Source: Watersipora subatra
Taxonomy: Eukaryota > Bryozoa > Gymnolaemata > Cheilostomatida > Watersiporidae
Direction of reading: 5' to 3'
NCBI RefSeq assembly: GCF_963576615.1
Contig: NC_088716.1
Span: 57,815,681-57,879,680, forward strand
Length of the DNA: 64,000 nucleotides
Below the pieces are notes generated by a model. It worked only from the letters and a program-made list of their open reading frames with translations, was not told the DNA's origin and did not search any database. The translations under genes were made by a program, and so were the position numbers. Positions within the stretch are counted from its first letter, which is position 1. Every line of letters begins with the position of its first letter. Positions 37,101 to 60,047 of this stretch are shown here, in pieces.

Positions 37101-37835
37101 GAGCCTGTCAACACCTGCGAACTTACTAGAGTCCTCTCGCTTCCAGTGTCAACCAGACACTGAAAACCGCAACCATTCAGAATTGCTCGAACGGCCGGCA
37201 TACGACTGCTCGTCGTAGGCGCGCCAGTTGCCCCGGACAGCCAAGAACTGTCCCGCAGTACACTCTTACTGCTTGCATGTGACCTCCAGCCTCCCCCTGT
37301 CACACCAACGCCACCTCGGGTCCCCCTGATGTTATGGGACCCTTCGTAAGCCTGGCTTACACGGTGTCCATATGAGAGGATGCGGCGCCCTGAGTTGCAT
37401 CCTCCTGATGAAAACCCGGCTCATCCTCTGTGAGCTCTGCTGCCGCCTCAGGCGGTGGCCGTACAGGACAGTCCCGTACAAAGTGCTCCGTGCTACTGCA
37501 CCGGAAACACCCGACCCTTTTGCCAGAAGAGATCTTTTTCGCCCCCGTACCAGACGATGGCCGCTTAATACGTGGGCCGCTTCACCCGGTGTGGACCCCC
37601 CCATCGAAAGCGAGAGCCATGCGGTTACCTCACCCGCACCATCACCGGCAAATGGCTGCATCTGCCGGCTCAGCCTTTCTAGAATAGGCCCTCGTGCCTG
37701 GTTCATCAGATTCGCTAAAAAAGCGGCATCTAGAACCAGCGGCACTGTTCCAGCGCTCGCGGCGCCCTCGGGTGGCTGACCACCTCCGCCATCGGTAGAT
37801 GGCTCAGCCTTTTGGCTGCTCCCGGGCTCACTCAT
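34109..37835 (-). pseudogene. Broken gag-pol of retrotransposon 1
   Basis: In order on the minus strand: a short Gly/Pro-rich gag-like start (37835), a CCHC zinc knuckle (CFRCSSTEHFVRDC, about 37515-37470), a protease with LVDTGS (about 37160), and reverse transcriptase with VDVKSAYLQIHV (about 36370) and YIDNIVV (about 36160, Asp to Asn at the second catalytic position). RNase H follows with MWTDAS, NELEAV, VDS and NKAD (35731-35330). The integrase has D (AIDV), D (LLMDNS) and E (NEIVERNHQ), then an acidic tail. The gene is split over at least five frames with an in-frame stop near 35030. Gag is far too short for a full capsid. The RT-RNaseH-integrase order is that of Ty3/Gypsy elements. Confidence 0.88.
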
Positions 37836-37921
37836 AGCCCGCTCGTGCTCACCTCAGCCCAGCTGAGTGGCACCACCTAACAACAAGGCAAAATAAATAC
37901 AATATATAAGCCGAAATAGCT

Positions 37922-39307: not shown

Positions 39308-42300
39308 ATGCGTGTACCTCTGTTAGAATATACACTAAAACATAGCGACAAATGTTTGCAGGGAGCTGGTACTGTAATAGAATCTACTTCATCTAGTATG
39401 AACACCTCATTAGATAGTGAATTTCTACCCACTCAGACGTACTTGCCATGTGACCATCAGCTGATGAAGTACCTGCCTATATTTGACAGGCTGACTGTCA
39501 CTACTTACTCGGTAGGATGATTCTTCCACTTGTTCATAAGTAACAGTGAATCAGCAAGAGATATCAATAATAACGATGCATAATGTAGGCAGAGTATGTA
39601 TTATTTGAAGATTGGTGAAAGTATACTGTGTTTGCCATAAGGGATAAACATTGAGGCTGAATGTTCATATACTAATCTATTGTTTAAGTGAACATTATGT
39701 ATAACTTCATGGCACAACAGTATTTATTATTCTTTCGATGATGAAAATTTTAACTTTCTAATTTTAATCTTACTTTCTTTAACTTCTTAAAGGTTGACTT
39801 GCAATAAAATTCACATTACAGTTATTTGATATGAAAAGATTCACCATGTCTTACTCTGTTGTGTTGCAGGTGCAAAATATGTGAAAAGGAGATTACAAGC
39901 TCTTAAAAGCTCAAAAACGAACAGAAAATCGCAGCCACACGAGACCGCCGTAGTTTGGATTCTCTTTCCAAAACGGCTCAAATGTGACGCAGTTGTGAAA
40001 GATGGTTTCTGTTTACACTTTCATGCAACCTTACTCGTCGAAATATTTTCACAAATAAATTTCACGCATTCCATAAAACCATGTTTATCGTTTATATGTG
40101 TCTATTTTATCGTCATCATTTTATAATCATGACGAGCCTGTTGGTCATCTGTGATAATCGAAAAGTGCTGCAGAAATTATTTGCGAAGTATTGGGTCACA
40201 TGATCAGATTACGACTTGCCGATTAGACCAAACCAAAACAAAACTGTAAAGTAGCGAGCATTTATATTTGATACGGGGTCTTCGGCAAATTCCAAAGTGT
40301 TTGTCATAAACTAGTGCTACGATAAGTTTTATATTGAGCTTTTTATTGGCCTTTCAATTCACGTGAGAACATCACGTGACAAGACAATAACCAAATTTCA
40401 TGGCTACGTCATCGAAATAAAGAGATTCCAATCTACGGCGGCTTTTCGTTTTTGAGCTTTTAAGAGCTTGTAATCACCTTTCCACATACTTGGCACCTAC
40501 AACACAACAGAGTATGACATGGTGAGCCTTTTGATACTAAATAACTGTGATTTAAATTTTGTTGCAAGTCAACCTTTAAAGATAAACACGGAATATTTAT
40601 CACAGAGTTCAGATGCTGCAGACTACAGTGAAAGCTCTGTACTAGAAATGAGATCATTTGTAAACACCAACTCTGCGCAACAGTATTTTGAGTTAATCAG
40701 CTCACCATTTGCTACTCAATCAGGATATGAATCTTCAGGAAATAAGGTAAGTCAGTGGCTCAACGTAAATGCTCACAAAACAACTAAAAGAGTCATATAA
40801 CATTTTAGAAGTCAATTATACAACTTTTTGGAGTATTTATGTTATACCACACACAACAGCATAACAATTTGAATGTTGATCTCTTTTCCTTTGGAAGCTT
40901 TGCGGAGCTACGGCGGCGAGTGCTGCAAAAATTAATGAGATAATAAGGACTTTCAGGAAACCAAACAATGAACAGCTGACCACAACTCAAAGATCAGAAC
41001 TTGTCTTGGCAAGCATTCTAGAATTTATGCTTAATCATCATGACTCTAACCTAGATGTGTGTATTCAAACAGGAGACGATGAATATAAGGTACACAATTT
41101 ATGCTGTTTTCTACAATATTACTTTTCCATTAGTAGAGATACAGTATTTAAATATCTGGTTATGATTTGGTGGTTTATATTATTGCTACTGTATGTTAAA
41201 ATTGGTTTTGTGATTAATCATATAGGAAATGGTTGTGACTATTAAGTGATACTGAGAAAACACGGACCTTGTCTCTATACTCCTTACAGGCATAATACAA
41301 ATTAATTGAAAACAATGATTGAAGTGAATAAGAATTATTGAAAAGCATTACGATTTTGGCCTGTTTTTACTCAGTTTAAAAAAAACTATCTTCATGACTC
41401 AGTAGACTATTTAAAATCATCAGTTGATAAAAAATTGAAAAAATTGACTTCCTTCTCGTGGACAGATTGATCGGCAGAATCTTAAAGTTCAAAGTTAAGA
41501 TAATGAGTTAAACACACAAATTAAAGTCCCGGCACTTACCTCTACCAATTATTATGAACGAGCAGTGATCAAGGGACAGACTTTATCTGTATGGAGTAAT
41601 GCATTGTACACGCTGACATCACGTTTGCTATATTTAGCTCAAGACAAACTAATGATAAACATGTTACACATGCACAGCTAAAACATTTAACACATTTTAT
41701 AGTTTGTATAATTTTATTGCTTTTATAAGAAATGCATGCTAACTTTTACAGGTCTACATTGATGCCTACAACAAAATAAAACATCTAGCAAGGATCCAGC
41801 AATACAAGGCTATTAAGGAGAGGCTAGCCGTGATAGAGGACACAGACTATGTAATGAAGAAATCTCATCTTCAAAAATTAATGGCTTCTTTGGAAGTAAA
41901 GTAGTTGCTAAGGAACCTTATTTTTTCAAATTTAAAAACTGAAACTACAATGTATATAAATATTCGCAGAAAATGTTAGCAGAATCTCAAATAAAAATTT
42001 TGGTAAATACTAACTAAATGTTGTGTACTGGATTACTGAAAGTTTTAAGCTCTGTTAATTGAAGTTCCAAATATTTAAGCTTCATCTAGTAAACCATAAA
42101 TGATATGCTTAACATCCTATCTGATAGTAGGAAGTCTATATTTATTGTCAATAATTATAAATTATTGTCATTAGCATCAAATTCTACTACAGATTGACGA
42201 ATTCGGAGCCAAGGTTAGCAAAAATGGTAGCACCAGGGAAGCTGACCAACGGAGTAAGTACCAAAGGAGTGTCAGTACATGTAAGCCATAGATACCATAA

Positions 42301-44680
42301 GCCAGCTTGAGTGTGGAGTCAAGTTTTTTTTCTTTGAAGTAAAACTGCTTCATTTAGTCAGACATTTTTGAATAACAACTAAAAAAATAAAAACGCCATT
42401 TATGTTAACCAAATAAAATATTACGTTATACACATATACTGATTCATTAATTGAATGAAAGCCATAACTATGTATAGTATCTACACTATAGGCTACCAAA
42501 GAATTACTACATCTTCTAGTTATTTTTTCTTGTTAATCAGTTGCAAGTGATAGTTTTGTGTATCTGTTAGTTTTGGTCTGGTCTGAGTGTTTTGTAGCCT
42601 GATTTCTAAACATGCAAGCTACAAAAATACTCAGCCTTCATGTTTAGACATATCAATAGTAGAAACCTTTGTTAAAAAGTGGTTATTTTAACTGGTTTTC
42701 TACTTAACAAGTTCAACACACAATTTACTGTGAGTTCAGTTATTTATTGTTGGTACTCTGAGCTAGTGATAGGTTTTTTTAGTCAAGTAAAGAGTAAGTT
42801 ATCTAAACTAGAGGTAGTAAATAATCTTATTACAGTTCTGGATTAGCACTGTATGAACAAAGTGTCCAAAGTTAACAAGTTAACTTTGGTTAACAAGGTT
42901 AACAATTTTGGTTAAAAACTTAATATTGTCCAACTTATTCACCTTTATTTTGGTCAAAAACTTTATCTCCGTGGCTACCGAATGTAACATTTGTATAATC
43001 TAGCAAACTGTACTTTATTTAGGTCAAGTTGACTGTAAAGAGAACTAAATAAATATCTTAACTTCTTACTTGTAGAGCAGTTATACTTTATACCTTTTTG
43101 GGGTCCAACCCACAATATTTCCAATTTGATTCATTGTGATTGATAACAACATACATATCTACAGAGCACCAGATTAATATCCCAAATCCTGTCGATCGTG
43201 GGTTCTACAAGTTTGAAATTTTTGCAACTAGCCAAGAGTACCAGACAGTTATTGACCAATTGTTCTCAAGATATGACTACTATAGGAGCTTCGCATCATC
43301 AAATCATTCTTGTACTGTTAAGGTGAGTTAATATAATATTAATACTAAGTCATACCAAAGATAGAGTCTGTATATTTCAAGTTCTTTCTACTTGCCGAGA
43401 CTATCAGCAACCTCTTCAGCGGTTGCTCTCTCATAAGTGATATGTTCTGATGACCAATCAAAGGATCATTTTCCAATTAAGAAGAGCCGACCTACAGCAT
43501 AACTTTCATACTATTTTTGGCTTAAATTCTGGGTTTTAGCTATGCTCTCGTTTACCCCAACTTATATTTCTCACTTTAGAAATTGTACCTTTACATAATA
43601 ACTATCAATTTATTGTTTCCTAAACTGTAATTTCACTCAGTCGTTAGAACAGCCTACTTATGTCAGCAATCATGCAGTCTCTCATTGCAGATAAGTAAAA
43701 TAAGAAATCTCACTTTACTCACCCAATATGAAGCTCAAAAAAGAAAAGTTCAGTGGTCGCTAACAGCAGAAAACTCTGAACTTCCTGCAGAAAGAATACT
43801 ATTTCATTCAACAGACAAGGGAGCAGCTGATAAGATATGCAGAGAAGAATTTAATAGAAGCTTTGCCGGCTCAGCATATGGTAAGCAGGTTATTCTAGGT
43901 GCTTTTGCACAGACAGATGAGTGAAAGCATATCAGTATATATGTACTTTTGTGTCCTTGATGTGGTGAATAACAACAGTTCAACCTTTACCAGATTGATG
44001 GTTGTTGATCCTAGAGTTCTCCGAACAACACTTGGTAACATACAGCGCAACTTTGTGGGTGGTCTCCTTGTTTGTCTAATTTTTAGGCCATCAGCAATTA
44101 TATCTCGGTAGATTATTGTACCAGCTAAACTTTTGCTATACCAAGATATTGCGCCATAAATAATATATGCCACATTAATAAGTTTCGCAAACACAATCAC
44201 GTAAAGTCAAATGCTTCGATCCATAATCTCGGATGTTAGCATCAAGCTAGATAAAGACTTACTGCATAAGGTGTCAACAGAAACACGCCACAAATTAGTC
44301 TAAGTGTCAACAAGATGTTAGGATGTCTTTACCCTTAAGCTAGTACAGTAATCAGAAAGTAGCTAAAGCAATAAAATAATTGTTCTGTTGAAGGTACCTC
44401 CTATGGTGCAGGCGCTTATTTTGGTACAAGAGAAGGTGTTGCTGCATTTAGAGGAGAGTGTGTGTTCATGGCTAGAGTTCTCACTGGAAAATTTTACAAA
44501 GGCAACCGCTCAGTCAGCAGAGTCAATCTATCACCAACCTTTCACTCCACTGTTGACAATGTCGAAAATCCAACTGTATTTGTTGTTTACCACGATGCAG
44601 CTGCATGCCCAGAATACCTTATTGAGTTGACTGCTGCAATTAAGTATTGTAAAAAATATTATGGAAGCACTTTTCATTAA
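39308..44680 (+). CDS. PARP catalytic-domain protein, paralogue A (probable mono-ADP-ribosyltransferase)
   Basis: Exons: 39308 (or acceptor at 39362)-39511, 40606-40746, 40898-41089, 41752-41895, 42193-42253, 43165-43322, 43691-43880 and 44394-44680 (TAA); about 458 residues from ATG 39308. The C-terminal third is a PARP domain of the PARP10/14/15 type: RNLTLLTQYEAQKRK, then LFHST (catalytic His about 339), SYGAGAYFG (Tyr about 372), VLTGKFYKG and CPEYLIEL. Leu (about 439) stands where poly-ADP-ribosylating PARPs have Glu, so an H-Y-L triad and mono-ADP-ribosylation are expected. The first about 250 residues (LEFMLNHHDSNLDVCIQTGD and others) are shared with paralogue B but match no domain I know. 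No macro or WWE domain is seen. The start is uncertain: in-frame ATGs precede the first acceptor-like site in both paralogues. Confidence 0.85.
39791..40575 (-). mobile_element. TTAA-flanked non-autonomous DNA transposon, copy 3
   Basis: It is bounded by TTAA at 39787-39790 and 40576-40579, with the same AGGTTGACTTGCAA ends as copies 1 and 2 but an inverted interior relative to them. It lies in the first intron of PARP paralogue A and ends only 30 bp before the exon starting at 40606. Confidence 0.9.
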
Positions 44681-44747
44681 TACCCATACTTTACTGTGGC
44701 ATCTAATGATTTTATTGTTTGTTATTGAAAAACATTGAGTGTGCATA

Positions 44748-44753
44748 AATAAA
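44748..44753 (+). promoter_or_regulatory. Poly(A) signal of PARP paralogue A
   Basis: AATAAA lies 68 bp after the TAA stop, the only canonical signal close to the end of the gene. Confidence 0.6.
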
Positions 44754-45858
44754 GGATTTCTACAATACAATAATCAAAATGGTTCACCCTTACACATGTA
44801 TGCTGTGTATCAATAACAAACATGAAAATAGAAGGTTAAGCATATATGAATGCTTTTACCAATGATCAGCTATAGCATTACAAATTTACAATAGTAAAAA
44901 ATCTTGCTGAAGATTTTAAAAAATAACGGAGGCATTTTTTTTATTGTGCCTACAGAAACACTCTGTTTGCATGATCATTTTGACATTAAATCTGATTTGC
45001 CGTTATTATTAATGTAAGGGCTAGTTCAAACTGATGTTTTATGTATGGTGTGCGAGGTGATGTACCCTGGTATGCAAACTTATGCAGGTGCGTGATTGGT
45101 GTGACTCAAATATCTATATAATCAAAGGGTGGCGCAGCTGAACCACGCGCACTGGTCATGCGCGGTCGTGCACGATTGCGCATGACGTGGCATGTAATTG
45201 AAAAGGCCTTTCTTCACCCTTCCAACCCTTTCAACCAAAAAAGGTCTGACCCACCATTTTTGAGCTTACTCTGTAACTTATTTGCTGCCTTTTTCCTTTT
45301 AGTTAATTTCTTTAACAATAGGAAATCAGCGTTTCATCTTTTGTTGCTGCAAAACAGCATCTTCAATCGATTTAAATGTTGGAAAATGCTAGCAATGATG
45401 TAATGTGATATCTTGGAACTGGAGAAAAGGCAATTTGTGCGAAGTCATGTGCTCTTTGCAAGTTTGTTGTATTGTTACTAATCGGGGATACAAATGTTCA
45501 AGGAATTGAAAAGCATGATTGATTATCTAAAATACTTGTCTGAAGCAGGCCTAACTGACTAACTGCTTGACTGACTGACTAATATTCGTGGTGAGGTGAG
45601 TTGAGCATTATTTTAGGGAAAGCAGACTGAACATGGTATTAGAACTGTTTAGCACTTAAGTAAGTACTGTATTCTATGATGAGCTTGCTTAGAAATGTAT
45701 TCTTATACATCTATACTGATGAACCATAAAAACCATGATGAAGTTACATGTAGAATAGGAAGCATGCATAGATTGTTTATACTCTGTTAGAACATGACAT
45801 CAAAGTTTCTTCCTTCTGCTTCTGCAAAGACCAATGTATTATAATTAACGTGTTATAA

Positions 45859-45907
45859 TAAACATAAATAAGCGTAATTATATGTGAATTACGCTTATTT
45901 ATGTTTA
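45859..45907. repeat. Perfect 21-bp stem with 7-nt loop
   Basis: Bases 45859-45879 are the exact reverse complement of 45887-45907, with atatgtg between them. No poly-T, gene end or other terminator context is present. It may be a tiny inverted-repeat element or a replication-generated palindrome. Confidence 0.9.
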
Positions 45908-46239
45908 CTGTGAGTATAATGATTAATAGCGAACAATGATCACAACTGCTATCATCGTTTATAAAAAATGATGTCATCAGGTGAGAAGTTTATATTACTT
46001 GAATGTTTTACAACATTAGATATAACAATATTTCCATTTTGTTTGAAGGTATATTGGATATAATAAGAGACGAGAGTTAAATAGAAAATAAGAAGCTGGA
46101 GTAATTGAATTGAACGAAAAGATGAACGTATGTGTAGAGTACCTTAATTAAATAGGGTCATTTTTCCTGCTGAACCATGCATCTAAGATCTACAATCACA
46201 GAAATCTGAATAAAGGTTGAATATTATTTGACTGCATTT

Positions 46240-46640
46240 TTATGGCAGATCCCTTTCCTGGCAAGTAGCTTTTGTGGCAGGTCACGTTTCTGGCCGGTAA
46301 CATTTCTGGCCGGTAACATTTGTGACGGGTCACTATTGTGGCCAGTCACTTTTGTGGCAGGTCAATTTTGTGGCAAATCCCTTTGGTGGCAGGTCAATTT
46401 TGTGGCAAGTCACTTTTGTGGCAAGTCAATTTTGTGGCAAGTTACTTTTATAACAGGTTATTTTTATAACAGGTCACTTGGGAAAATGGTCACTTTGGAG
46501 AAGGGTCACTTTGATGACGGGCTTATTCGATGATGGGTCACTTTCATTACAGATAACTTTTATTCTCCTTCTGATGACAGATCCCGTTTGTGATGGGTCA
46601 CTTTTGGGATGGGTCATTTTTCATTTTTGTGACAGGTAGC
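46240..46640. repeat. Degenerate 15-bp tandem repeat
   Basis: A unit near ttttgtggcaggtca recurs about 25 times with much variation (ggcaagtca, gacgggtca, aacaggtta). The multiple-of-three period keeps a plus-strand frame open over 46228-46533, which is not evidence for a protein. Confidence 0.85.
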
Positions 46641-46733
46641 TTCGAGATAAACTAGCTGGAGTGTTGAGTAAAAAAAAGAATTGTGAGTAGCTTTTGTATT
46701 GAACCCCATGGAACCCAATGAAATTAAGACAAT

Positions 46734-46918
46734 TGTTGTATTGTAGTTGTTGTATTGTATTATCACGATAAGTCTTGTATCACAGAAAACACAGCTAACA
46801 GGTAAGAAGCACATAAAGGAACTGACTTAGTTAGCAAGCCCATAGCTATGGGTTACTAGACAATTATGCGGTTATAGCACAGCTAAAAGAAAGCTGACTG
46901 CACAGCTAATATGTAACA
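46734..46918 (-). repeat. 3' LTR of retrotransposon 2
   Basis: It begins TGTTGTATTG and ends TGTAACA. It is nearly identical to 51188-51375. Confidence 0.95.
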
Positions 46919-46961
46919 CATCTCCCTCACTATTCGGAGTTTATGGTTAGTCATGACCTTG

Positions 46962-49900
46962 TTAGAACTTAGAACTGTCATAGTAATCAGGTCGTCTTCT
47001 ATTACGAGTAGGATATCTGGGACTTTGTACTGGCCTCTCATCAGGTACAGATTGGGCAGGTTGGATGTTAAGATCATTTGAAGCTGTGATGATATTGTCA
47101 TTGGTCGATGTATCATTAACTTGAAGTCTAGCTTGTAGCTAATTGGCATGTCGTCTCCATACACCACGGTCTGTTCGCACAGCATACAGTATGTTACCCA
47201 GCTTGTTAATTATCGTTCCAGGTATCCACTTAGGTCCAGAGCTATAGTTCCTTGCATAAACCAAAGAGTCTACTTCATACCGTGATGATGTAGAAGATGC
47301 TTGACCTGGTGAAAGAGTTTTCTTGTTCTGAATTGGTTTCAGCAAGGTCAGAGTATTTCTCGGCTGTCGTCCATGTAGAACTTCAGCAGGTGATTTCCAG
47401 TTCAAAGAGGGATGAGGCAAACATCTGTAAGTGGTTAAAAACAGTTGTAGGGCAGTCTTGATTTTCTCCCCTCCTGCACAATTCTTCTTTACAGATTGCT
47501 TAAGAGTCTGGACAAATCTCTCCGCTTCTCCATTCGATGCAGGATGGAATGCGGGAGATGTTATATGTTTAATGCCATGCATGGTGCAGAACTGGTCAAA
47601 TTCATTTGAAACGAATTGTGGGCTGTTATCCGTAACAATAGTCCAAGGAAGACCTTCATGTACAAAGATCTGTCGTAGCACGCCAATTGTGTCCTTAGAA
47701 GTAGTTTTTCCTACATCTAGCATAGCAACGTACGGATATCGGGAATGTGCATCTACACAAACCAACCACATCTGACCTTTAAAAGGTCCTGCATAATCCA
47801 AATGAATTCGTTCCCATGGTAGTTGGGTGGACGGCCAACTTTGGTAAGTCTTGGCTGGGTCATTAGCACAGATTCGGCAAGGTTCACAAGCTTTGATTAG
47901 CTGTTCTATGTCTGCATTGATGCTAGGCCACCATGCGTATTGACGAGCAAGCTGTTTTACTCTTTCTACACCCCAGTGTGATGTATGCAGCAAGGCTAAC
48001 ACTTTACTCTTCAGAGCCTGTGGAATGACAACTCTAGTAGTGTCATCATGTTGCAAAAGCACAGCCTCCCCATGAACAAAAAGAGACTCCTTCATATTCC
48101 AATATGGCCGCAAATGTTCATAGCTAGCTGTAAGCTTATTGGGCCAAAGGCCATTCAGTATCCACTCTTTCACTATCTGTAGTGATGTGTCTTTCATGGT
48201 TTCTTGTTTAACAGCCTCATCGTCAAGGAGATCATGATCGAGCTCCTCTTGTATAGTGTGTGAGACCTCAATGCTCTCCTTCTCTTCATCATGGTCAAAC
48301 TTCGGGTCTGCCCCTAAAGGTAACCTGGACAAGCCATCTGCATTGCCGTGCTGTGCTGTAGGTTTGTACCTGATGTCATACTGATAAGCCATCAGTGTGA
48401 GGGCCCATCTCTGCAGTCGCTGAGCTATTAAAACGGGGATGTTCTTTTCTGGTGAAAACATGGCAACCAGGGGTTTATGATCAGTGATGAGCGTAAAACG
48501 TCTCCCATATAGATACTGTCTAAACTTAGTCACTCCATAGATGATAGAAAGCACTTCTTTTTCTATCTGTGAGTAATTCTTTTGGTGCACGCTCAATGTC
48601 TTTGATGCATGTGATAGTGGTATTTCAGCTCCATTTTCCTCTTGTATGAGTACTGCCCCAATTCCATAGTTAGATGCGTATGTTGCTAGAACCAGCGGTT
48701 TACTCTGGTCAAAATGGGTAAGTTTGGTAGCCTTGATGACACTTTCTTTAAGAACATGGAAGGCCTTGTCACACTCGTCAGTCCAGTCAAACTCGAGACT
48801 TTCATGAAGAAACTTGTAGAGGGGGGCTGCTTTGCTAGACAGGTCAGCAATGTGTGAGCCATAGTAGTTGATCTTGCCCAAAAACGCCTGTAGCTGTTGT
48901 AAGTTCTGTGGTCGTGGAAGCTGTTCAATAGCCTCTATTGCAGAATTCGAGGGAGTCTTGCCGTTCTTGTCTATTATGTGACCTAGGTATTCAACAGCAT
49001 TCTTAAAGAACTCGCATTTCTCTCTCTGTATGCGGAGCCCATACTCCTGGTAGTCTAGCTAAGAGTTTGTCAAGATTAGACCAGTGCCCACTCTCACTGC
49101 TACCAGTGACAATCAGATCATCCAAGTATGCTGCAAATCCAGGTAAGTCAGCAATCATTGAGTCCATGCATCGCTGAAACTGTGCAGGGCTTGATGCCAA
49201 TCCAAAACACATCCTGTTGTAGCGAAACAAACCACATTGAGTGTTGATGACACACATCTTCTTTGCATTATCATCTAACTCTAGTTGCAAGTAGGCATCT
49301 GCCAGGTCTATCTTGGAAAAGTGTACCCCGCCTCTCAACTTCTCTAGCAACTCTTCAAGGCTTGGTAATGGGTGTTGATCAATTGATATTTGTTGGTTCA
49401 ACATCTTGAAATCACCACATATACGCACTCTTCCATTTGGTTTGGAAACTGCTACTATTGGAGCAGCATAATCACTAAAGTCCACATGTTCCAAAACACC
49501 AGCTTTAACTAATCGATCTAGCTCTTCTTTTACAGCTTGGCGTCTAGAGAATGGCACTACACGAGGTTTAGAAAAGCTTGGTGTGCTTCCTGGTTTCAAG
49601 CGTACTGGTACTTTTACCTTTTTACATCGGCCAAGACCTGTCTTAAAGACATCAGAGTACTTAGAGGAGAGTAGAGCGATTTTGTCCCTAAATCCAATAG
49701 GGTTACTTCCTGTGACAGTACAGGTAACATCACAACTACCCTGTGTCAATATAGCTAGCCCCTGCTGCGAGAGACCGAATTTGTCACTCCAATCTAGACC
49801 AAAAAGGTTTGAGCCTTGTGTTGTGTTTACAGCAAGAAGTTTGAGATTTTGTTTTTCCACATCTCCTACCTTCACACTAACTGAACATTGTCCTTCAATC

Positions 49901-51183
49901 TGTAACTCACTCTGCCCATGCGCTTTAAGATGGGTACTGACAGGTAAGAGGGGGGGTGATCCAAGACTTTGGTAGCCTTGCAAATCAACTATAGAGCAAG
50001 TAGCCCCTGTGTCCCATTGAAACATTGCATCATGACCATTGACAACAGTTTTGATCCAAACCTTTCTATTGACTCGTTGGAAAAGATTATCTGAAACTGC
50101 ATGTACTGAATGATAAGGTTCACTTGCATCAGTGAGCACACTTAACACAGAGTTTTCAACTGTCCTAGCAGACTGTTCTGTCTGACTTTGTGCTGCTGTC
50201 TTAGCCATACAGACAGCCTCAATGTGACCTTTGACCTCACATTTCCTGCAGACAAATGCTCTGCAGGGACAATTTTTTCTGTCATGTTTAATGTAACAGC
50301 TAGGGCAAGACTTCAACATACCTGTGTTCTGTGCATTAGCTTGTTGCTTTCCAATGGTTTGTTGACCTCGGCGGGATCTTTGCTTGTACTGACCTGACAT
50401 TTTGTTTACTGTGTCTTCAATAGCTGGAGAAGTTGTCTCCCCCTTGAGAATTTTATCGGTCTCCGTTGTCTTGATGAATGCTGTAGTCTTCTTAAAAACA
50501 TCATTAAGAGAGGGATCAGCATCAAGTAGACACTGGCGACGTACATCAGCATGTGGCGTCGCTTTAATGATTATGTCACGAATTTGTTCATCAACATAAC
50601 TAGTGCCACAGCCTGTGCTTTTGCACGTGAAAGCACAGTGCCGTGCGAGTCCACGAAGTTCTGCAGCACAATCAACATAGGACTGACCAGTCTTCATCTT
50701 ACATTGAGAAAATTCAAATCTTGCTGCCTGAACATGTATGGTATCTGCAAAGTGTTCATTAAGTTTCTCCGACAACTCAGTAAATGACTTGCTTGTAATA
50801 TCCTCTGCGCCAAATAAGTTTGATAACAAGTCGTATGTCTCAGCTCCTACCCAAGATAGTAAGCATGCTCGTTTCTGACTGTCATCTACCACCCGATACA
50901 CATTAAAGTGCTGATTGAAACGTTGAAGGTACTGGTTCCATTTTTCTTTACCCCTGTCGTATGCTTCAAACTTGGGTATGGCGACAGCTACTGGTATTGA
51001 TGCAGCACTATCACTCTTGGTAGCTTCAAACAAGGAGATAAACTGCTTCTGTAGATCAGCGTTTTGCTGCTGGAACTGTTGTTGCTGTTTCTGCATAGCA
51101 TCGATCAAAGCTTTTATGTTAAGATCCATAGCAAGACAATAGAAAAATGCTGGCTGTGAGTCCACAATGTTCGTTCCTGACAC
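46962..51183 (-). pseudogene. Gag-pol of retrotransposon 2, disabled by three lesions
   Basis: A first frame (51183-49003) holds a Gln-rich start, a capsid-like region, a Cys/His zinc-finger pair (CPSCYIKHDRKNC and CRKCEVKGHIEAVC), a protease with WDTGATCS, and reverse transcriptase through FGLASSPAQF and AYLDDLIVTG. One single-base frame change near 49060 moves into a second frame (to 47142) with the RT thumb, RNase H (IEKEVLSIIYG, LITDHKP), an HHCC finger, and the integrase triad D (HLDYAG), D (IVTDNS) and E (NGEAERF). RNase H has Tyr in place of the first catalytic Asp (LATYASNYGIGAVL). A TAG at 47139-47141 cuts off about 58 codons that remain in frame to a TAA at 46962. Gag and pol appear to share one frame, as in many Ty3/Gypsy elements. 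Confidence 0.92.
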
Positions 51184-51187
51184 CAGT

Positions 51188-51375
51188 TGTTGTATTGTAG
51201 TTGTTGAATTGTATTATCACGATAAGTCTTGTATCACAGAAAACACAGCTAACAGGTAAGAAGCACATAAAGGAACTGACTTAGTTAGCAAGCCCATGAT
51301 AGCTATGGGTTATTAGACAATTATGCGATTATAGCACAGCTAAAAGAAAGCTGACTGCACAGCTAATATGTAACA
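51188..51375 (-). repeat. 5' LTR of retrotransposon 2
   Basis: Nearly identical to 46734-46918 apart from a 3-bp insertion (gat) and a few substitutions, and followed by the ACAAT target duplication. Confidence 0.95.
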
Positions 51376-51380
51376 ACAAT

Positions 51381-52340
51381 ATTATCTAATCTTTTAGAAT
51401 AGTACAAAGACAAATAAGAGTAGGCTAAAAAGCATGTAGAATAATGAGCACGCCTAAAATCATAACTCAATAATAAAATAATACTACAAAGTTGCACTAG
51501 CTCATTCAATTTGAGTATAGAAGCTTAAGGACTTGTCAATGAGCAGTCGCTGTCAAGAGACAAATGTAGTAGTTTTAACGTTATAAAGATGTTCTAGTAC
51601 AAAGCAGAGATTTAATTAACAATCAGCTATGGCGCTCTGGCTTTCTGCCAAAAATCAAACTCCGAAGGTTCTAAAACATGAAAAAGAATAAATATTTTAT
51701 AAAGTCTACAGACATACTTCGCTGACAGAATATTTAGACAATAACTATTTTTATTGCTATCAAAGTGATAAGCTGACCAGTAAGGATTTTTGTGTGCTCC
51801 CTTTAGCATTCATGGTGATGTGATTGAAATATTATTTTAGCTGAAAAAGTGTAAATATTGTAAAAAAAAATATTGAAACTTTATAATTTTTTAAAAAGCA
51901 GGCATATTAACTACATTGTTTAATTTTGTTTTATTAAAGAAAATGTGGGATAATTTATGCTGAATAACAAATACATCTGCAATGATTCTGGTATAGTGTT
52001 TAATAGTAATCATAATTGCTAACATGATTTATAATAATGGCACCGATGACTAAGAGGTTTATATTAACTGAATATTTCACAACCTTGCTGATAATAATGT
52101 ATTTGATTAAATATTTACTGATAATAATGTATTTGATTAAATATTTACTGATCTTGGGCAAATCTTGTGGTATTTGAAGTAATATTAGATATGACCTTTA
52201 GCAATTTTCGCCTATTTTACATTATAATATTTAGTTTTGAAAAAGTTTAAAATATTTCAAAATTCATAGAAATACTCAAAGATTCTTAGTTATATAACAG
52301 CTATAGGTGGTAAAACCAAAGGAGTTTTAAAACCATAGGA
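51381..52340. other. Gene-free stretch
   Basis: No supported exon. A 30-bp phrase (starting ctgataataatgtatttg) is duplicated in tandem at about 52087-52150. The segment around 52030-52075 loosely resembles 45965-46010, downstream of PARP paralogue A. Confidence 0.5.
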
Positions 52341-52382
52341 GTTTAAACCAAAAGATGGGTATACCCATCTTTTGGTTTAAAC
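52341..52382. repeat. Perfect 42-bp palindrome
   Basis: Bases 52341-52361 (gtttaaaccaaaagatgggt, then a) are the exact reverse complement of 52362-52382, with no loop. Near-copies of the half (taaaaccaaaggagttt, ttaaaaccataggag) lie just upstream, so the palindrome probably grew from a short local repeat. It directly precedes the reverse-transcriptase fragment. Confidence 0.95.
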
Positions 52383-52392
52383 TTTACGCTAA

Positions 52393-53110
52393 CATTCTAG
52401 CAAGGTGCGTGCATCAATTGACGTAAATGATGCTAAAGCTAAAGAATTAGACAACATATCTGCAGAACTTGTAAAACCTAGTTCAAATTACTTAATAAAA
52501 CCATTAACATATATATTTAATTTATGTATAACACATTGTATCTTTCTTATTCAGTGGAATTCGGCAAAAGTAGTTCTTATTTACAAAAACAAAGTGAGTT
52601 TCTATGTAATAATTATCAACAAATTTCTGTTTTGCCAGTATTTTGTAAGATTATCAAATGGTTATTTAATAATCCAATCAACACCACATTGCTGTTTACA
52701 CAAATTATGTACTCTCATCGACATGGCTTTTAGAAACATAAAGGACCTCAAGAAACCTTTATTGAGTTAACAAACATAACCTTTGCTGATGGAACAACCA
52801 TTCATGTATAATACTAGTTTTCATTAACTTTCCAAAAGCATTTGATATTATAAATCATGAACAATATCAACTAACAAGCTCATTTATTTAAACTTTCGCT
52901 GTCTATTAAATTTAATTCAAAATTATCTAACTAAAAGAGCACAATGTGTCATAAGAAATCAAACATTATCAGCTCCTTTTAGATGGAACATGAACTCTCC
53001 CAGTGTTCCATTTTAAGACATACTCTCTTTTTTATATATCAATGACTTTTTATAAACACAAATATCTTCCAGACTATATTATTTTCAGATGACATAATTC
53101 GTTCTGTACT
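52393..53110 (+). pseudogene. Non-LTR retrotransposon reverse-transcriptase fragment
   Basis: Frames on the plus strand give LDNISAELVKPSSNYLIKPL, then FNLCITHCIFLIQWNSAKVV with IYKNK. After a frame change come NYQQISVLPVFCKI, then INFPKAFDIINHE (the F.D.SKAFD motif with the first Asp lost), and near 53090 LFSDDII (an xxDD box). This is the order of a LINE reverse transcriptase of the Jockey/CR1 type. Several frameshifts and stops show that it is dead. No endonuclease or 3' tail was identified. Confidence 0.8.
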
Positions 53111-53397
53111 TTATATAAAATTTAAACAATAACATCCTGTCTGTAAGCTATAAATTACAACTCATAACTGACTGGTGCAATGTAAGCAAACTTATATCAG
53201 ATCTTAACAAAACTAACTACATAGTTATAAAAAAGCCGCAAAACAATTATCAGTTAATAGAGCAAATTTCTTAGCTTAGGACGTCTATAGGTTTATTCCG
53301 CGTTACTTCTGAAATTTTTGTGGTATGCTTTCAACCTGATGCTGCTCAAAATAAAACCAAGCTGTTCTATTGATTTCTTGACGAGTTATTGCCACAG

Positions 53398-53804
53398 ATC
53401 TTCAGTGCTGATAATGATGGTTTGCTAAAAGAATTGAGTGCTAAAGTCAGCTCTGACAGCAAAACATCAGTTACCTGGAAATATGGCAATGTAAATATGA
53501 GCCCCAATGATCTTATACTATCTACTAAATGAGCATAGCTTGGGCTTGTGATTACAAACACCATATTTTAATTATAATCAGCACAGCGAATTCCCAGCAT
53601 AAGTTTGATCTCCTTCGATCGCTGGAAGCAAAAATAGCTTTTCAACCAGAATCAAACAGAAACTGTGTAGGTAAAGTTACAGATGACAAAAAATTTGAAA
53701 ACATTTTTCCGATTAATTCTTTAGGGTTGCAAAAGAAATTTTCTATCAAAACCGATGCAGCCGCAGGCCTGATAATTGCAGTGGGGTATTATTTAGAAAA
53801 ATAA
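53398..53804 (+). CDS. Two candidate exons, unrecognised protein
   Basis: After an acceptor (gttattgccacag) at 53397, about 31 codons are open (ADNDGLLKELSAKVSSDSKT, TWKYGN) to a possible donor GTAAAT. After a second acceptor (gcgaattcccag), a frame starting HKFDLLRSLEAKIAFQPES runs to TAA near 53804 (KTDAAAGLIIAVGYYLEK). Phases fit, and the composition looks coding. I do not recognise the protein. It could be a small gene fragment, a lost 5' part of PARP paralogue B, or a relic. Confidence 0.25.
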
Positions 53805-53810
53805 AAGAAA

Positions 53811-54762
53811 AGTATGTCAATGATAAAATGAAAAGCTTTTTCATCATATACAAAATATTTTTCATATAGACATAAACATGATTGCTGAAATTTAGTAAAT
53901 TCGAAAAGCTTGCGTTGGAAATATAAACATGAGATCTACTGGTCATGGTACTTCTTTTTAATTTGGTGCCTGATTGACTGGGTAGTTAATTTAAGATGTA
54001 ATCATGAATATCAAAACAAGGTATCTATTCTTTGCTGTTTTTTTTATGTTAGAATTATTAAAAAGCCACATTAGCTGGGAGCATAAGCAATAAAGCATAC
54101 TCACTAAAACTTACATCCAAGAAACTTGGTCTAATGAATAGACAAGAACAGCTATTTTTGGCCAAGCTTGAATTATAGCTTTACAGCTTTGCGCTTTAAA
54201 CAAAGCTTTTTTGAGATTATTGGCTTTCAGTGTAAAGAATGAACTCATAGCTTTGTTTCAAGTCTGTCTCAGTAAGGGAATTTAGTCATCTTTGACTCAT
54301 TCGACTGGTAAGGCACACAATTTCCTATATAAACAACTAAAATTGTTTGCTATTTTTAAACTTGAATTGAAAGAGGTGAATTGAATAATAACTTCATAAA
54401 CTGTCAACTGTGTATAATGACTAAACATCAAAGCACAATATGTGACAGATTTATCACTAACAATTTTTATAGAGTTTCAAAAATATATTTAAAGATTTGT
54501 TGTCTGTTATAGCCTACCCGTGCTCTCCAATCTGTTTGAGCAAATAGTTTTTTTTTGCTTTTAGCATGTTTTGATTGAAGTAAACAATTTTAAACTTGAG
54601 TAGCTGTTAAATGAATGAACTTATTAAATATTATTGAGCACTATTTAACAGACTTATTCCTAAAAATATCCTTTGGAATGTTAAAAAATGCCTATTCAAT
54701 GTTTCTGCATGTTATAGCTAACTAATACCTTTAGATATTATTGCTAAATTTGTGTGTAAATA
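53811..54762. other. Presumed upstream region of PARP paralogue B
   Basis: No supported exon. The stretch gctttacagctttgcgcttt with caaagcttttttgagattatt near 54175 resembles the region upstream of paralogue A near 38970. Confidence 0.4.
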
Positions 54763-57700
54763 ATGTTACTAGAAATACAACAGCTGTATAAACATTGTTT
54801 ACAGAAAGCTGATGCGCCAATGGCATCTACTTCAGGCATTTCTAATAGTTTGGTAAACTATGGCAATCCAAATACTCAGTCGTATTTAGCGCTCGCCTGT
54901 CGGCAGATGAATTACCAACCAGTGAGGAACAGGGTGACTGTAATTACCCGCTCAGTAAGATAAACTTATCTATAAGCAATCAGAAGAGTAAAAGTAAGAC
55001 TATTGGTAGCACCTGCTTTTGCAGATCAACTAGGTAATTGTTTATGTTATACGCTGTTGTAATGCAGTGTGTACCATTTATGGCCATTGATAGGACGGGT
55101 TTAGTCCACTACAATTGCAGAGTGTGGAGGACAAATATGTTTTACTCTGATGTAAGCTATCTCAGAATGAATTTGATAAAAATGGTGCAAGAAGCTGCCA
55201 AATTATAATCATAGTGATTGCAGATTGCATAATAACACAGTGATTGCATGCTAACACTGAAGTTGATACCGCTGTCATTACATGAGCAACATTTCAGATT
55301 TTTGCTCCAGACAATTCGACATTTTCCAACACACTTTGGTATGTTACTGATGAGATGATATCATAACACACAGCGGGTTTGCTGCTCACTAATTAATCAA
55401 AGTCACATAACAGCATTTAACATAGCTACATTTAAATCTTTCACTGTTTTTTCATAAAGAAAAAGATAACAGAAAAAAGCTTATTGAGTGTCTGGCACTG
55501 AGAGCATCAAGGATAAACACACCCACTTTATTACAGAGTCCTAGCTCTACAGAATTTGATCAAAGTGCTATAGTACAGATGATACCTTGGAGAAACCTTG
55601 ACCTTACTAATTCATTAACTACTGACTCACTAAGGAATATGGTAAGTTAGTTTTGCTGTACAGTTTTTCACCTGTCTTCTTTATCAAATGCATACAAGAT
55701 AGATTGCTCAGAGGTAATAGTTATTTATCACTTTGAATTTGAAGAGTTGAAAAAGCAATAAATTTAATGACTGTAAACTTTTGGAGGTTTTAGAGCTTGA
55801 ATATTACATTATTATACACACCATAGTAACCCATGTTAACTTATGTTGCTCTACTAGCTTTGTAGCGCTGTTGACCGAGCCTTGCTAGCTGTGAAGAACA
55901 GAAGCAAAGTGAGAATATCTGTCACTAACACAAACAACAAGCTGCTAACTAATACTCAAGCAGCAGAAGTTATTTTGATACAGATACTAAAATTCTTGCT
56001 AGATCATTCTGACTCTACTCTGGAAGTTGCTGTTCGAACTGGGGAGAACCTATATGAGGTGAACAAGTTTTTGGCTATGCCTTGCTAGTTATCATTAACT
56101 AAACTGAAATATGTATAGTAGATGTGACTTATGGTTTTCTTGTTGCTATAATAAGTTGATATTAACTGTGTAGTAACTGCATGGTACAGACTTAATAGTA
56201 GGATACTAGTAACTTTGAGAAAATCATTTGAAAGCCTGTCTTCGAGCTAAACATAATATACGTTAAACATTGATTAGACTGAAATGAGCTGCTGACACAA
56301 GATTCAAAAGAATATGTGCTTAAGAATCATTAAAATGCAATTTTTTAGAAGGTTTCTTAAGAGTTTCACATTCTATTTAAAAGAATAATATTACAATGTT
56401 TTGTTCTACAAAAAAATTGGAATGTTGGCTCTGAGTGAGGATTTTAATAATATACAGCTCTCTAATAACATTTTTCACTAACTTCAGTTAATATCAGTTT
56501 AAATTGTACTATAGAGCTTCCTTTCTGGTTATCAATGTCTGCATGATCTTCCTGAGTGTATATCTTGATTAGTGGCTAAAATTATATTGACCCAGTGTTA
56601 TTACACAAGTTAACATTTCATGGAGATATTTTAACACAGATATACATGAGTCTATCACACATGTTGTACAGAGATGTTACACAAAGGTCACAATTTTTAG
56701 CTCTCTAATTATCACTGCTGTGAAAATATTCTTACTTCTATTGTCATAGGTCTACAATGATGTCCATTGTCAAATCAAGAGGCAAATAGTTTCACAGCAG
56801 ATTGAGATCAAAGCCTACTCTAGCGATAGTGGCCAAGCTAGTAAAACTGACCAACTGGGTGAGTATATATGCTTGAAGGAATTTAAGAAAACTGTAGATA
56901 CCAAGAGCGAGTGTCAAGCCACATCGCTTTGCCTTTTCAACATTCTTGTTATAAATCATGAGAGAGCAAATTAGATGTATCTAAAAATTAAACTGATCTC
57001 ACAAAGTGTTTATTAAAATTAATCCTTGAAGGGGCTAAACTTCTAATTTATTACATATAAAATATTAAATTAAAACAATGGTAATAGTTTAGGGAACCAT
57101 CTATGAAGTATTTGATAGTGATGTGAATTGCTGCCATAAGTATGTAAAGGTCACCTATTGAATAGTAACAATAGGTATTTCTAGAACACCAACAAAACTA
57201 CTGAAAAGTTACTAAGAACTATGCATCTACATGTATGATTTCTATAGAAAAAATTGAAAACTAGGAACAAGATGATTTTAACATACCAATTATTTTGGTG
57301 GAGACATTGCTAAACATAATGAACATTTTCAAGTATATAATCTTAAGTGAACTTTCCTCTGTAAGTAACAGATTCAACACACCCGTTATAGTCATTTCAA
57401 TGGTTTTTTGTTGATACTCTAAGCTAATAATCAGTTTGCAATGGCTGAGTAGCCAACAACGCCCTCTTTCTGAAGCAGAAGCCGTAATTAGGAAAGTTTT
57501 TTGATGGAGTTGTATGACCAGAATATGTATATACATGTAAATATATTTGAAAATTATATATTTACCAGAATAGTCTGAGTTTGCAATTTTGAATACAGAA
57601 TAAGTTTGTTGTAAGCTATTTAGCTTTTCGTTTATCTACGCATTTTCTTTTCAATTAAATCAAAAATGTTAGATATTTGCAATATGTAAATGAGTTGTAA

Positions 57701-59281
57701 ATTATAAAAAATATGTATACAGGAGTGAGAAAAAACTAATAATTTGATCTAGTTACCACCATTATGCTTCAATTGCTCTCTTTGTATCTCTTAGATGATC
57801 CACAGCTAAGTATTTTAAAATCCTACATATTTTTTACCTGTACGACTAAAAGCTTTTAATATTGCTACAGAAGGCTATTTTGAGATCCTTAAACATATTG
57901 ATGTCGGAGTCTGTAAGTTTGAGATATCTTCAACTAGCCAGGAGTATTGCAAAATCTTTGAGCAGTTGTATCCCTACTTTAAGAATTGGTCACAACTCTT
58001 TCTAAGACATCGGTTTACTTATAAGGTAAGATCTATCTAATATCTATACTATTTTGTTGTGCATACTTTTAAACTTAAACTAAATTCTGGCAAATTTAGC
58101 AGCTTGTTTATTTTTTATTTTTGCTTCTTAAAAGCTAGCAAACTTTACCTGAAAATTGAAACAGGTTACCGTTGATTCAGAACTTTCAGCAATTGTCTTT
58201 TCATTCGCAGATAAGTAAAATTCAAAATCTCATCTTACTTGCCCAGTATGAGGCTCAAAAAAGAAAGGTTGAGTGGTTGTTAGCAGCGGAGCAGTCTACA
58301 TTTCCTGCAGAAAGAAAACTACTTCATGCAACAAGCAAGACGGCTGCTGATAAAATATGTGAGGAAGAATTTAACAGAAACTTTTCAGACTCAGTTTATG
58401 GTGAGCAGGCAATCATGCGGGCTCACAAATGAATGCATATGCTTGTATGAGCATGTCATTGTCTGTCTATATAAATTGTCTTGTAAAAAGTATGTGATCA
58501 CAGATCTATCTCACCTTGGATCTAGGCCCCTACCACACTTGAACAATTTTGAACACAGACCAACTATGGATGGTTTCACCTAATGTATCATCTTGTGATG
58601 CTGAATACCAAGTGGTTACATCTCTGTAGATGTTCTAACAATTTCATGGTTTAGTCAAAGTTATCTTTTGCTGCAACTTATTTGTAAGATGTACTCTATG
58701 TCATACCAGTTCTCTTCAATCTGTTCCAATAGGTATTTTTGCCCTTCTATTGCATTTATTTATTAAAGTAAACAGTTACTAAACTGAGAAGCTGGCAAAT
58801 GTATAAACTTACTGATGGCTATTGTGTATCATCTTACAGATTCTTCAGCAAAGTTTTTTATTTTTTATTTTATATTTTTCATTGTAAATGTTGTACTAGA
58901 AAACTACAACACTCTACATTTCTGTTGCTAACATGCATACATGTTTTTATGATTTCCGTGAATATATTTCTGCAGAAATAGACTTGCGTAGCAGTTAGAA
59001 ATACCTCTAAATGAGTAGACTAATATACTGTTGTAGGTACTTCTCTTGGTGCAGGCACTTATTTCGATACGGAAGCAGTTGTTGCTAAATATGGAAACAA
59101 GTGCTTCTTCGTGGCAAGAGTTCTTACAGGAAAATATTACCAAGACAACCGCTCAGTCAGCAGAGTCAATCTTTTACCAACCTATCACTCTACTGTTGAC
59201 AATGTTGACAATCCAAATATATTTGTTGTTTACCATGATGCTGCCGCCTACCCAGAATACCTCATTGAATTTACTTATTGA
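54763..59281 (+). CDS. PARP catalytic-domain protein, paralogue B (probable mono-ADP-ribosyltransferase)
   Basis: Exons: 54763 (or acceptor at 54805)-54954, 55537-55641, 55858-56058, 56750-56858, 57871-58025, 58211-58400 and 59037-59281 (TGA); about 398 residues from ATG 54763. The PARP domain mirrors paralogue A: QNLILLAQYEAQKRK, LLHAT (His about 293), LGAGTYFD (Tyr about 326), VLTGKYYQD and YPEYLIEF, with Leu (about 393) at the third triad position. This again predicts mono-ADP-ribosylation. Upstream, KFLLDHSDSTLEVAVRTGEN parallels A. Exon order and intron phases agree with A, except that the fourth exon here covers the start of A's fourth exon and the end of A's fifth, so one intron and about 30 codons are missing. 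The second exon is 12 codons shorter, and the C-terminus lacks A's last 14 residues. Confidence 0.85.
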
Positions 59282-59847
59282 AGGAGCAGTATCTGTTAGG
59301 CATCATTGGTATACAAATGAAATAAATTTATCAAGTATAAAAACCCAAGGTCTCTGAGCTCAAAACCCAAAGTAATGTCATGTGTTTAGCAAAGGTCTAC
59401 CACTATGACACAACTTGTTATGTATAACTAGTTCTATTGAGCTAAATAATATGTTATCAAGTATATTAGTTTATCAAGTTGATAGTTGTATTTAGTAAAA
59501 ATAGAGTTTAAACAGCCTGTAACAGATGATTCCTAAGGTATCAACCCAGTGGAGCCCCTTAAAGACTACCAGTAATATTTAGTTGAACTGCAGCTAATAA
59601 CCATGGTAAAATATATGTTTTGATTTGAACACATCGTCTAGTTGTAGTTCATAGTAAGTTGTAATTGTGACAAAGGCCAGTGAGCATGTATTCCTGTGAG
59701 AAGTGCCTGTGTGTTACATCTGACTTCAGTGTGTCACATTCACACAAAATAGAAACTCATTCTTTAGAGCAAACGTGCTTCTTAAGATAAACAACTAAAA
59801 AGAGCCAAGCTACAGCATAACCGTCATATTGTATTTAGCATAAATTC
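59282..59847. other. Intergenic tail up to the assembly gap
   Basis: It contains the 3' end of PARP paralogue B. The last about 47 bp before the gap (59801-59847) match intron sequence of paralogue A at 43488-43534 in 38 of 47 positions by my count. Confidence 0.5.
59321..59326 (+). promoter_or_regulatory. Poly(A) signal of PARP paralogue B
   Basis: AATAAA lies 40 bp after the TGA stop. Confidence 0.55.
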
Positions 59848-60047
59848 NNNNNNNNNNNNNNNNNNNNNNNNNNNNNNNNNNNNNNNNNNNNNNNNNNNNN
59901 NNNNNNNNNNNNNNNNNNNNNNNNNNNNNNNNNNNNNNNNNNNNNNNNNNNNNNNNNNNNNNNNNNNNNNNNNNNNNNNNNNNNNNNNNNNNNNNNNNNN
60001 NNNNNNNNNNNNNNNNNNNNNNNNNNNNNNNNNNNNNNNNNNNNNNN
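59848..60047. other. Assembly gap (200 N)
   Basis: Exactly 200 N, a conventional placeholder length, so the true distance is unknown. Confidence 0.99.

Follow-up and report, generated by a model that had tools for sequence, protein, structure and literature searches.

The bryozoan Watersipora subatra carries, on contig C9 of its genome (NC_088716.1), two neighbouring PARP-like genes, here called A and B, within a 64,000-nucleotide stretch (positions 57815681-57879680; hereafter the window). They belong to a local cluster in which all five copies with catalytic exons have lost both residues that would hold nicotinamide in the pocket. We give an even chance to the reading that the cluster is a lineage-restricted family of weak or inactive ADP-ribosyltransferase-fold binders, comparable to PARP13/ZAP. 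Each protein would pair a PARP12/14-like ADP-ribosyltransferase (ART) fold at its C-terminus with a module of about 170-200 residues immediately N-terminal to it. Loss of both nicotinamide-bonding residues, together with a shorter donor loop, would lead to poor or no binding of nicotinamide adenine dinucleotide (NAD); the proteins would then act mainly by binding, as PARP13/ZAP or PARP9 do, with the N-terminal module providing the contact with a partner or target. Reduced catalysis, the binding role and any immune role are what we infer from the sequences. Inactive PARPs, for example mammalian ZAP, work without catalysis.

Both genes lie on the forward strand, and the same-strand pair described in an initial annotation of this DNA, starting at 39308 and stopping at 59281, was confirmed. 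With exon 2 left out as doubtful and start codons of our own choice, gene A joins 7 exons (39308-44680) into 1236 nt with an open frame of 411 amino acids, and gene B joins 6 exons (54763-59281) into 1092 nt with an open frame of 363 amino acids. All internal exon boundaries of the two genes obey GT-AG, the exons follow the order 1, 3, 4 and then the catalytic exons, and the entry phases are alike (0, 0, 0(, 0), 1, 0, 1), so the spliced models bear out the matching exon order and intron phases that the annotation had reported. Gene D, on the opposite strand beyond the window, has the same phases at exons 1, 3, 4 and 6. Exon 7 of A and B follows a phase-0 intron that lies upstream of the catalytic His, so the phase match may in part reflect PARP ancestry instead of being peculiar to this pair.

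Exon 1 of A (39308-39511) comprises 68 codons from the ATG at 39308 to the donor gtagga and is conserved in A to D, its likeness to the other copies beginning near 39353; in exon 1 of B (54763-54954), the second ATG (in MASTSG) aligns with the ATG of C and D. Exon 3, the core of the N-terminal module and conserved among the copies, spans 40898-41089 in A and 55858-56058 in B, and holds the peptides quoted in the initial annotation. Exon 4 (41752-41895 and 56750-56858) also belongs to the module, and A has an extra 61-nt exon 5 (42193-42253) whose counterpart by similarity in B, C and D is the 3' half of exon 4. The PARP catalytic part begins in exon 6 (43165-43322 in A, 57871-58025 in B), continues through exon 7 (43691-43880 and 58211-58400) and ends with exon 8 (44394-44680 with a stop at 44680; 59037-59281 with a stop at 59281). 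Upstream of these exons, the stretches examined in A, B, D and F showed no further consistent conserved coding frame.

The joined catalytic parts pass the Pfam cut-off for the PARP domain (PF00644, 26.7 bits) with 33.9 bits for A and 38.6 bits for B; single cluster exons are absent from the 114 PARP-model matches of the genome, for which 150 of 168 candidates were scored. In phmmer searches against PDB chains, PARP12 ranked first for A (E 1e-19), for B (E 1.1e-19) and for a C/D composite (E 3.7e-22), followed by PARP14, 10, 15 and 13 in an order that varied by query. The earlier description of a PARP10/14/15-type catalytic domain thus stands as to the PARP domain and the homology, but the closest solved relative is PARP12, ahead of PARP14, 10 and 15. 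The catalytic triad reads H-Y-L (His, Tyr and a non-Glu third residue, Leu) in A, B, C, D and F. Among mono-ADP-ribosyltransferases, H-Y-L with Leu in third place is one of the forms seen.

The nicotinamide pocket is where the cluster departs from its relatives. According to a passage of PMC9189837, a Ser and a Gly supply two essential hydrogen bonds at this site, Gly1602 and Ser1641 in PARP14, and we equated the cluster residues with these two by our own alignment. The His-Gly-Thr motif has become HST in A and HVT in C, and HAT in B, D and F, so that Gly is replaced in 5/5 copies. The pocket Ser, coming after the first donor-loop Tyr in PARP14, is likewise lost in 5/5 (Ala in A to D, Gly in F), and every one of them has a shorter donor loop than ten relatives, human PARP12 and PARP14. 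Outside the cluster, elsewhere in this genome of 784 Mb and 239 contigs, the exon-7-type matches listed, 17 by our count, kept His-Gly in 17/17 (HGT 9, HGC 5, HGS 2, HGA 1). The members of this set are not independent, since over the part read three do not differ at all and a fourth differs by one residue. A His-Gly count from four PARP1/2-type exons was not used as evidence, the search pattern having demanded HG. For the last exon, 11 relatives of about 42 matches were fetched and 10 were readable; 6 of these have the pocket Ser in the aligned column, 3 have it displaced by one position, and 1 (C5:45.1 Mb) lacks it. The PARP at C5:45.10-45.11 Mb keeps His-Gly-Thr beside a neighbouring last exon without the pocket Ser and is a possible intermediate if the two exons form one gene, as we assumed from their nearness. 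Reading upstream of the paralogues at C9:21.5, C9:21.6, C5:45.1 and C9:52.3 Mb gave no domain architecture for them, as this DNA contains a Helitron-like element, simple repeats or no clear exons. The pocket is altered in every readable cluster copy, a point overlooked by the initial annotation and one that alters the likely mechanism. In a tree of exon 7 with 15 rows (the 5 copies, 8 of the first 10 relatives and 2 human PARPs), from which two identical rows and seven later-read relatives were left out, the five cluster copies form one group (86/96; 88% of 200 bootstrap trees), consistent with one loss.

The same proteins could instead be active mono-ADP-ribosyltransferases whose nicotinamide pocket has been adapted: the module would target the enzyme, and the replacement of Gly and Ser would do no more than tune its affinity for NAD; we consider this possible but rather unlikely. 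It would agree with the H-Y-L triad kept in 5/5 copies, with the homology to PARP12, 14, 10 and 15, and with exon 7, the most strongly conserved exon, whose ratio of nonsynonymous to synonymous substitution rates (dN/dS; throughout, pairwise NG86 point estimates without a significance test) is 0.09-0.30 over 10 pairs. It has to explain why none of the five copies keeps either hydrogen-bonding residue (C having Val in place of Gly), why the donor loop is shortened, and why the other comparable PARP exons of the genome keep His-Gly without exception. Our estimate for weak or inactive binders was left unchanged by that last count, because conservation among relatives says nothing on the effect of the loss.

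Several points weigh against the weak or inactive binders that we favour, the form of the dN/dS estimates among them. All five copies retain the triad His and Tyr, and the conservation of exon 7 would fit an active enzyme equally well. The dN/dS of exon 8 is low (0.33-0.69, 10 pairs), as are those of exons 3 and 7, and these values count in favour of the binders, but exon 6 is loose (0.23-0.88 in five pairs, a sixth not being computable), and so is exon 4 of the module, where three pairs of 35-36 codons give 0.60, 1.00 and 1.81. The pocket Gly bonds through backbone atoms, as stated in a passage of PMC9189837, so Ala or Ser at its position may be tolerated; loss of the Ser alone is not diagnostic, because the relative at C5:45.1 Mb keeps HGT without it. 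The exon 7 tree has 64 columns and several long branches, and its 86/96 lies below its own star threshold. Finally, the exon 3 models of A and B discussed below are weak and disagree on strands, so that no fold was obtained.

The cluster itself was delimited by tblastn of each exon against 164 kb of contiguous sequence. It contains 5 catalytic exon sets (A, B, C, D and F) plus a fragment, E, and C to F are located within about 82 kb beyond the window. In window coordinates, the exon series of gene C runs from about 104.4 down to 95.8 kb and that of gene D from 112.5 down to 107.0 kb; fragment E, at 115.5 kb, has exon 3 only, and gene F has an exon 2-like match at 120.3 kb, exon 3 at 124.6 kb and catalytic exons at 139.4-142.1 kb, the last assigned to it by order and strand alone. 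In the same 164 kb no exon 1 match was listed for F or E, and no catalytic exons of its own were found for E. Genome-wide, the module queries returned the cluster and one decayed exon 3 copy with three stops on contig C2; these searches were at BLAST level, and remoter copies could escape them. A query with the first two exons found 7 places in the cluster and 4 elsewhere at E 0.3 or worse, and those four were taken as chance. The two paralogues reported at first are a real pair, but more copies lie beyond the window, and a search for them within the same genome yielded C, D, E, F and the decayed copy on C2. The shared exon 3 in six copies is more than chance would give.

Tandem PARP expansion in itself is ordinary. 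Duplications of PARP14-like genes are frequent and often close together, for example in lancelet, as described in part of PMC4245714. The cluster could also be mostly decaying duplicates, born and lost in turn, with A and B lacking a constrained function. A foldback element has inserted into exon 2 of A, fragment E has no catalytic exons of its own that were found, the exon 3 copy on C2 carries three stops, and an extra partial last exon lies beside C. We regard this explanation as improbable, however, since A and B have full open frames with GT-AG splice sites and exons 3 and 7 have low dN/dS. The extra partial last exon after gene C (C9:57911396-57911491, minus strand) is nearer to B than to C, and the stretch that contains it is 88% identical to B at 59194-59618, which suggests recombination between copies.

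The alignment with PARP12 begins within exon 6, and exons 1-5 therefore represent the non-catalytic part. This part comprises about 200 residues in A and 167 in B, and not the roughly 250 proposed initially, as exon 2 does not fit in frame. In an alignment of exons 3 and 4 from six copies (E with exon 3 only), there are 13 invariant columns, all of them in exon 3, and the dN/dS of exon 3 spans 0.26-0.33 when only B, C and D are compared and 0.15-0.61 when all 15 pairs are; for exon 1 it is 0.33-0.65 in six pairs. Searches of Pfam, NCBIfam and PHROGs with the N-terminal part gave only weak single-member matches, none of them credible; TusA, Glyco_transf_21, Gly_radical and the other sub-threshold matches (best E 0.002) each came from a single member and were dismissed as chance. 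A profile search of the PDB with the module returned one match, an ATP synthase subunit at E 0.56, which is not credible. AlphaFold2 gave two helices and a hairpin for exon 3 of B with A as sole partner (predicted local distance difference test, pLDDT, 69.8; predicted TM score, pTM, 0.42; five-model mean pLDDT 50.6-69.8) and two helices for exon 3 of A alone (pLDDT 62.6, pTM 0.48). Foldseek with the weak B model was uninformative (best E 3.4). The earlier statement that the N-terminal part has no recognisable domain has thus held in Pfam, NCBIfam, PHROGs, the PDB profile search and Foldseek, the last with one weak model. A single match in IMG/VR fell, by eye, on the P-loop region of a helicase-like frame sharing the octamer ILKFLLDH and was rejected as chance, its 6.3-kb record containing no PARP match; 50 pattern matches in GTDB contigs included no relative.

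The module may alternatively be a strongly diverged WWE, KH-like or RRM domain with no new fold, which would be compatible with the other readings and which we rate as a possibility of some weight, short of an even chance. It sits immediately N-terminal to the ART part, as the WWE domain does in PARP7, 11, 12 and 13 according to a passage of PMC4245714, and the B exon 3 model has a weak helix and strand propensity that could point the same way. Six members without a credible Pfam match speak against it, as does exon 3, which has no tryptophan in any copy. Moreover, WWE has at least 6 matches in the genome and macro at least 60, with 0 of either on contig C9. A WWE, KH or RRM identity found no support, KH and RRM being covered through the Pfam scans only, and CCCH zinc fingers had no credible Pfam match among the N-terminal exons. 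We therefore describe the module as a conserved, unrecognised segment and a candidate new domain. The initial proposal of a new targeting module is borne out in its conservation and in its restriction to the cluster and one decayed copy, not in a folded or targeting character; a new targeting or interaction module is thus possible. An antiviral or stress role for the cluster genes would be a guess by analogy. Under the terms searched, the open-access papers covered contained no report of this PARP family.

Exon 2 was omitted from the models because its phase clashes with exon 1 and its dN/dS is 0.55-1.05. The candidate lies at 55460-55641 in B, open in one frame, and a remnant lies at 40580-40746 in A, doubtful as coding and dispensable for the open frame. 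The open frame of exon 2 in B, C and D requires a phase-1 donor, and the exon 1 donor of A to D is in phase 0; no phase-0 acceptor for its sole open frame was seen in B, C or D. Over 41 codons, its dN/dS is 1.05 (C-D), 0.85 (B-D) and 0.55 (B-C). For these reasons its inclusion in a 250-residue N-terminal region was set aside. A 31-nt mini-exon bridge in B (55121-55151) was also rejected, as it has a phase-0 stop and a donor that, by eye, is not kept in C and D. The conserved open frame and donor of exon 2 could nevertheless reflect an alternative transcript.

In A, the 5' part of exon 2 is replaced by an abutting foldback element, similar to a miniature inverted-repeat transposable element (MITE), at 39787-40579, with arms of 138 nt (39787-39924 and 40442-40579) that are 88% complementary; related arms occur at 7 further places in the 164 kb searched. 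Between A and B, outside both genes, a Ty3/gypsy-type long terminal repeat retroelement occupies 46730-51297 on the minus strand, with gag/protease/reverse transcriptase and RNase H/integrase frames. Its end-repeat pieces of 114 nt are 98% alike, which suggests a recent insertion. Elsewhere in the window, 34109-37853 (minus strand) has a raised G+C (about 0.45-0.48) and retroelement-like frames, one of them integrase-like by eye at 34535-35026, and 14934-15395 (minus strand) holds a frame that by eye is Helitron-helicase-like, similar to one upstream of the PARP exon at C9:21.6 Mb. A run of 200 N (59848-60047) lies just downstream of gene B. Among other PARP genes of this genome, contig C2 at 44.73-53.88 Mb accounts for 88 of the 114 PARP-model exon matches, in 43 groups (joined if less than 20 kb apart) with 17 of 42 spacings at 90-122 kb. 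They form a very large, roughly periodic PARP1/2-like array; the three copies read are of PARP1/2 type, with LLWHGSRLTNW.

Among known PARPs, domain structures are heterogeneous in clade 3 (part of PMC4245714), and triads vary by clade (part of PMC2964712). PARP12 (ARTD12, a clade 3 mono-ART) is the best solved relative over nearly the whole catalytic part (E 1e-19 to 4e-22). PARP12 has zinc fingers and WWE, as given in part of PMC4245714, whereas the cluster has the unrecognised module; its third triad residue is Ile (clade 3E, part of PMC2964712), whereas the cluster has Leu and has lost His-Gly. PARP14 and PARP15 share the H-Y-L triad, and PARP14-like genes are duplicated side by side in other animals (part of PMC4245714), but the cluster has its nicotinamide Gly and Ser replaced, and the macro domains found upstream in PARP14, 15 and 9 were not encountered, contig C9 having none of the genome's macro matches. 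The active mono-ARTs (PARP7, 10-12 and 14-16) resemble the cluster in the triad His, Tyr and non-Glu third residue and differ from all five copies in the nicotinamide-site Gly and Ser. With the inactive PARP13/ZAP and PARP9 the cluster shares an ART fold with a changed NAD site; the triad His is lost in these two (Y-Y-V and Q-Y-T) but kept in 5/5 cluster copies, and neither the CCCH zinc fingers nor the WWE of PARP13/ZAP or PARP12 was found in the cluster, by Pfam and by a WWE scan of the contig. PARP13 is a PARP12 paralogue with antiviral function (passages of PMC8102003 and PMC9189837).

More tentatively, and on balance doubtfully, the cluster may be a convergent set of ZAP-like pseudo-PARPs in which Gly and Ser were lost once, the rest of the ART fold stayed under selection, and a new domain, present elsewhere in the genome as one decayed copy only, was joined to it, the whole multiplying into a tandem cluster. 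If so, a non-catalytic PARP family would have arisen here independently, equipped with a recognition module of its own. Five paralogues with common pocket losses, beside 17 relatives that all keep His-Gly, offer a natural experiment on the need for the Gly in ADP-ribosylation.

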